From Planctomycetota bacterium (GTDB taxonomy: Bacteria > Planctomycetota > Phycisphaerae > WQYP01): a stretch of DNA of 48,425 nucleotides. Numbering within the stretch: the first letter of the stretch is position 1; each line of letters opens with the position of its first letter. Location of the stretch: contig JAKBMM010000016.1 of assembly GCA_021831565.1 (NCBI GenBank), forward strand, positions 1 to 48,425. The letters are read 5' to 3'. Under the pieces are notes generated by a model that was not told the origin of the DNA, ran no database searches, and saw only the letters and a program-made list of their open reading frames with translations. The position numbers and the translations under genes are program-made. Positions 22,328 through 22,853 of the stretch are shown here, piece by piece.

Positions 22328-22491
22328 GGAGTATTCCTTCTGCCTGCTCCGGCCGCAAGAATCGGTCGCGACCAGCGTGAATGGAAAGTTAACTCCCCGC
22401 TGCGCCGGCGGCAAGCGAGCTTGGGGAATCTGTTTTTGCTCCGCAGCTTGTTCCCGGCCGGCGAATTTATTAGGATGCGCTCGATCCCTTT

Positions 22492-22562
22492 TGGGGGATG
22501 GTGTAACGGTAGCACAGCAGACTCTGAATCTGTTTGTCTAGGTTCGAATCCTAGTCCCCCAG
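22492..22562 (+). tRNA. tRNA-Gln (anticodon CTG)
   Basis: A 71-nt cloverleaf. The acceptor stem TGGGGGA pairs with TCCCCCA, followed by discriminator G. The anticodon stem GCAGA/TCTGT encloses the loop CTCTGAA, with anticodon CTG reading CAG. The T arm CTAGG-TTCGAAT-CCTAG is perfect. U1-A72 with G73 is the typical glutamine identity pattern. CCA is not encoded. The region downstream (22563-36690) is accessory DNA, so this tRNA may mark an integration site, although no duplicated 3' end was found. Confidence 0.95.
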
Positions 22563-22684
22563 TTTTGGCCAAAGGCCAAAACAGAGCAGGTGAAATTTGA
22601 ACAGGTGAACATCAGTAGAGCACATCGCACCGCTGCTGAATGCGACGATACGGTACAATCCGACCGATGCAATGCGGCTGGTTC
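22563..22684. other. Intergenic segment after tRNA-Gln
   Basis: No gene or clear structure is visible between the tRNA and the target duplication of the MITE at 22685. It starts the accessory block. Confidence 0.5.
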
Positions 22685-22692
22685 GTTCTATG

Positions 22693-22845
22693 GTAACCGT
22701 TCACGGGCCAAAACTGGCGTTTTTTTCAAAAAAACGCGGTTTTATTCTGGTTTTGGCACTGCGGATGGCAATTTTACGGTGCTTTGAGCCATTAAATATC
22801 GAAAAATACCTTGTTTTTCGATGTTTCTGGCCCGTGAACGGTTAC
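22693..22845. mobile_element. 153-bp MITE with 18-bp terminal inverted repeats and 8-bp target duplication
   Basis: The ends are perfect 18-bp inverted repeats: GTAACCGTTCACGGGCCA at 22693-22710 and its reverse complement at 22828-22845. Directly outside both ends lies the same octamer GTTCTATG (22685-22692 and 22846-22853), an exact target-site duplication. The interior has no coding sequence. It holds three perfect inverted repeats: GCCAAAAC/GTTTTGGC (22707-22714, 22750-22757), a T7/A7 hairpin (22718-22736), and ATCGAAAAA/TTTTTCGAT (22798-22806, 22814-22822). IS66-family elements are known for ends starting GTAA and 8-bp duplications, so an IS66-type transposase may have mobilised it; none is in the window. 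The intact duplication implies recent insertion. Confidence 0.85.
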
Positions 22846-22853
22846 GTTCTATG

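Follow-up and report, generated by a model that had tools for sequence, protein, structure and literature searches.

The element and its genomic setting

The window (the whole stretch of 48,425 nucleotides that was analysed) is contig C63 of a draft metagenome bin, hereafter G000, of 2.81 Mb in 86 contigs. An intergenic element was found 129 bp beyond the 3' end of a tRNA-Gln(CTG) gene, well within the contig and with ordinary genes on either side (Table 1). Its two ends were identical over exactly 18 bp (GTAACCGTTCACGGGCCA) and an exact 8-bp duplication, GTTCTATG, was present outside each of them. Perfect ends, length and duplication had all been described in a reading made from the DNA letters alone (the sequence-only reading) and were confirmed at exactly the positions of Table 1. 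The same is true for the absence of coding capacity: the longest stop-free frame covered 51 codons on the + strand, nothing else appeared to be coding, and no PF03050 match was obtained in the contig, i.e. the element carries no transposase.

When the whole 48-kb window was scanned, these ends formed the sole inverted repeat with arms of at least 14 bp within 500 bp. Forty first-order Markov windows, for which the flanking 8-mer was not yet required, displayed 0.075 such repeats per window, the longest arm being 14 bp. The 18-bp ends together with the 8-bp duplication are thus far beyond chance and, since both are perfect, the insertion was probably recent.

The joined flanks were searched in 60 relatives for an exact empty site; none was found and only the tRNA-proximal 64 bp aligned, because the flanks of relatives are too diverged. 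The element was absent from the tRNA-Gln(CTG) loci of two of them (G025 and G027), where the alignment reached only 64 bp past the tRNA. The plasmid and phage collections searched gave no match. Directly 3' of the tRNA gene (22562-22625) lies a palindrome, GTTTTGGCCAAAGGCCAAAAC, and after it a set of GAGCAGGTGA-like repeats; this arrangement was conserved after the tRNA-Gln genes of relatives and was also observed at one tRNA-less place (L229).

Table 1. Features of the window and related elements of G000 (window positions unless a contig or locus is named)
Feature	Position	Strand	Remarks
tRNA-Gln (CTG)	22491..22563	+	upstream of element
Left target-site duplication	22685..22692	none	GTTCTATG
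Whole non-autonomous element (MITE)	22693..22845	none	153 bp, non-coding
Left terminal inverted repeat	22693..22710	+	GTAACCGTTCACGGGCCA; 18 bp, perfect
8-bp inverted repeat	22707..22757		GCCAAAAC/GTTTTGGC; weaker; encloses hairpin 1, overlaps terminal repeat
Internal hairpin 1	22717..22737		9-bp arms GCGTTTTTT/AAAAAACGC; DNA z -2.5, moderate
Internal hairpin 3	22798..22822		9-bp arms ATCGAAAAA/TTTTTCGAT; DNA z -5.8, strong alone
Right terminal inverted repeat	22828..22845	-	18 bp, perfect
Right target-site duplication	22846..22853	none	GTTCTATG
Second copy of the window family, two pieces	C22:144-199 and C85:1313-1400		~95% identical
Sister family B	C79, C37, C23, C32		152 bp
Family D	C3, C43, C50, C61, C55 (L145-L153)		GC-rich, 154 bp; longer versions 294-321 bp
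IS66 element of C14	L144 66-4374		both ends, 7/8-bp duplication
Composite element, complete (L263-L275)	C4:9994-10187, C9:4508-4701, C16:26921-27114, C62:39126-39319, C67:43981-44174		194 bp

Copies and sister families in the same genome

A search for further copies, suggested by the sequence-only reading, revealed more end repeats in G000 and in relatives. With up to 2 mismatches, the 16-bp end occurred 133 times in G000, against 2 occurrences for a reversed-pattern control. Many of these ends stood in inverted pairs forming several MITE families, and many were bordered by exact 8-bp duplications. This clan of elements with the same ends comprised dozens of copies in G000, among which the family of the window element was represented by one intact copy and one split, partly lost copy. 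Both pieces of the latter adjoined the IS end CACTACTGTCCGGTTAA, and the splitting IS was identified on C85 as a member of the IS4 family (401-aa transposase; NF033592, 264 bits). The pieces overlapped by an apparent 9-bp duplication, ACTGCG[G/T]AT, and the left end of the copy was lost; we infer that they are halves of one copy.

Family B resembled the window element in its ends, its length, its 8-bp duplications and a hairpin beside one end (AAAAGTGGCG...CGCCACTTTT) that is related to internal hairpin 1. It differed in its weaker folding and in most of its interior: alignment was confined to one end (about 45 bp) and the opposite terminus. The same likenesses and differences were recorded for related elements of 151-154 bp (L061, L082, L115 and L183-L217). 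Family D was the commonest MITE family sampled in G000; its long and short versions had both ends in common, all displaying GTAACCGTTCACG.

Family B was also encountered inside a composite element of 194 bp, complete at five places (Table 1) and present at the contig ends of C13, C15 and C74. The composite enclosed a family B body of which one GTAACCG end was intact and the other cut off, while its own ends, GGGCCTGTGACAGTTTCTGCA, resembled those of a second multi-copy IS and were flanked by 9-bp duplications (8 bp in C4). On these sequence grounds the MITE body has in all likelihood changed transposase. The multi-copy IS, with ends GGGCCTGTGACAGTTTATGCAGC and GGGCCTGTGACAGTTTCTGTCCG, breaks the assembly (L276-L291, mostly G000 contig ends), and contig ends could be paired through its 9-bp duplications (e.g. 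C9/C60, C51/C45 and C64/C33).

Distribution in relatives and other Planctomycetota

Among the 60 related genomes, 8 besides G000 displayed matches, mostly at the ends. Many elements of 151-154 bp bearing these ends were extracted from the relatives, and the majority were related to family B (GGGCAAAAGTGGCGAAAT.. beside one end). Of 294 genomes from the phylum, 22 contained the 14-mer core of the end, GTAACCGTTCACGG, with between one and 107 sites each. A scan of the genome collection returned mostly Planctomycetota. Shorter elements (122-135 bp) with the same ends and the same duplications were found in Pirellulales and Planctomycetaceae. In all, elements of 122-154 bp sharing these ends and exact 8-bp duplications were present in G000, its relatives and other Planctomycetota, and the architecture was repeated in independent assemblies from several studies. 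The window element is one of a large, apparently undescribed set in planctomycete bacteria. Two elements of 124 bp (L085 7026-7149 and L125 3899-4022), also with these ends and exact 8-bp duplications, contained a long, almost perfect hairpin (over 20 bp), either strand of which gave z-scores of about -8 to -10.

End pairs less than 330 bp apart were collected from many genomes and reduced to 95 distinct pairs. Exact 8-bp duplications bordered 33 of these, and the other lengths (3 bp in three pairs, 5 bp in one, 9 bp in two) remained at background. The stagger across the set is thus 8, matching that published for an IS66 element of the ISBst12 group (PMC12898284).

Internal hairpins and folding

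Three internal hairpins had been announced for the element. Three perfect inverted repeats were indeed present (arms of 9, 9 and 8 bp), but the central stretch (22746-22790) formed no DNA hairpin alone (z -0.16) and paired only as RNA through G-U pairs. With RNA energies, the whole interior reached a z-score of -5.6 when the + strand was folded, against -1.6 for the - strand; the + strand folds better as RNA because its imperfect pairs are G-U.

This asymmetry, and the position of the element 129 bp after the tRNA-Gln gene and on its strand, would fit an interior kept as a + strand structured RNA or terminator, with three hairpins closed by a terminal stem, selected for its fold and spread by the element as a regulatory or terminator RNA module. 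We consider such a role improbable. DNA energies made the two strands nearly equal (z -4.3 and -3.7), and the Rfam search of the window retained only the tRNA above threshold. Folding of 32 related elements gave z below -4 for just two, the window element and L212, whose folds differed; sisters with perfect duplications often folded no better than shuffles. The second copy had lost two pairs of hairpin 3 with no compensation, and no covariation support was obtained for the + strand fold. Conservation of one fold across the clan could be discarded, since folds differed and many z-scores were near 0.

The hairpins had also been proposed as transposase sites. This suggestion did not hold: sisters with the same ends and the same length mostly lack them, which is why they probably do not serve as such, and a general role was ruled out by hairpin-less elements with exact duplications (e.g. 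L202 and L081). The interior is probably passenger sequence. Since interiors vary between families and the ends stay constant, it is probably the ends that the enzyme requires.

Relationship to IS66 elements

IS66 transposase genes were found on three contigs of G000 (C16, C47 and C14), with TnpC profile scores of 131 bits (PF03050) and 291 bits (NF033517, NCBIfam). The IS66 element on C16 begins with GTAACCGTTCACGGGCC on its tnpC side (longer start, GTAACCGTTCACGGGCCTGAAGG), and this end, at C16:111884, was identical to the end of the window element at 17 of 18 bp; the last tnpC codons and the stop (GGC CCG TGA) fall inside the repeat. A second insertion of the C16-type end, with a different flank, was observed on C5 and displayed the same 17/18 match. 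Residues D231, D281 and E403, which we take to be the catalytic triad by analogy with DDE transposases, were invariant in four TnpC homologues, as were two CxxC pairs. Related IS66 elements of about 1.5 kb (L236 and L096) contained tnpC alone and are therefore ISBst12-like.

A search for a full IS66 element with these ends had also been suggested. Elements carrying tnpC and bearing the same end were recovered, but an intact full-length copy was not seen in G000. On C16, the other end was not in the contig and the tnpC start was replaced by another repeat. The C14 element had both its ends, but roughly 2.7 kb with a 644-aa ORF stood between its two tnpC halves; this stretch may be cargo or a later insertion. 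A 300-bp element in L102 kept 40 bp of the C16-type IS66 end (92.5% identical), was bordered by an exact 8-bp duplication and forms an intermediate between IS66 and MITE, for which an origin by plain internal deletion is plausible. Past the 17-18 bp of the end, nothing common to the window element and the IS66 found was seen, so that the window element is not just the C16 element with its interior deleted.

The known systems closest to the window element include the ISBst12 group of IS66 (single-ORF elements such as ISDge4 and ISBst12). For ISDge4, the published ends are GTGACT../GTAACT.. and the duplication is 8 bp long (PMC12898284), and ends of Pseudomonas IS66 elements read GTAACCGTCCGGGCA (PMC12888890). 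The window element has in common with this group the GTAA-start ends, the 8-bp duplication and a TnpC (DDE_Tnp_IS66) relative in the genome with a matching end; it differs in lacking a transposase and in having just 17-18 bp in common with the IS66 detected. IS-derived MITEs are known in bacteria, such as MITECca01, derived from IS982 in Cardinium (PMC9769881), and MITEPsy1 (PMC3189936). Like these, the window element is short, non-coding and bounded by inverted repeats, and its genome carries a likely parent IS. Unlike them, it would have an IS66 as parent, and its own family counts few copies within the large clan that shares its ends. No IS66-driven MITE was described in the open-access literature searched.

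Mobilisation and implications

Taken together, the window element is very probably a non-autonomous MITE of family IS66, of the single-transposase (ISBst12-like) type, moved by TnpC in trans. The MITE nature and IS66-type mobilisation put forward in the sequence-only reading gain support from the further copies of the ends, from the GTAA ends shared with the TnpC-bearing element of G000 and from the 8-bp duplication observed set-wide. TnpC would come from IS66 elements at other sites in G000; it would recognise the GTAACCGTTCACGG ends and insert the element at a target whose strands are cut 8 bases apart, and repair of the resulting gaps would generate the 8-bp duplication.

Duplications of 8 bp are, as is generally known, not unique to IS66, and G000 also carries IS4-family and other ISs. 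Another transposase family producing this length could thus move the element, the likeness to IS66 ends then reflecting coincidence or common descent only. We judge this very unlikely, given 17 bases identical to the IS66 end, the restriction of the 14-mer core to so few genomes of the phylum, and the different ends and apparent 9-bp duplications of the two other IS types encountered here. A chance inverted repeat, a tRNA-associated palindrome or an artefact of a draft metagenome assembly, two of whose contigs (C47 and C23) have practically identical counterparts in another bin, is hardly conceivable in view of the Markov controls, the recurrence of the architecture in independent assemblies and the position of the element well within its contig between ordinary genes. 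The contig identities themselves extended over 3-3.8 kb (C47 with G012 C146, L249 and L250; C23 with G012 C59, L006 and L182) and, the two genomes belonging to different genera, may reflect cross-binning or very recent transfer.

As an IS66-type MITE, the window element is of an ordinary kind and well-formed. Within the same clan, family B would clearly illustrate how a MITE body is mobilised anew by a transposase of a second type. Transposition of IS66 has been called poorly characterised (PMC12898284), and the clan as a whole (about 120-155 bp, same ends and 8-bp duplication, across Planctomycetota) would give minimal natural substrates defining IS66 ends.
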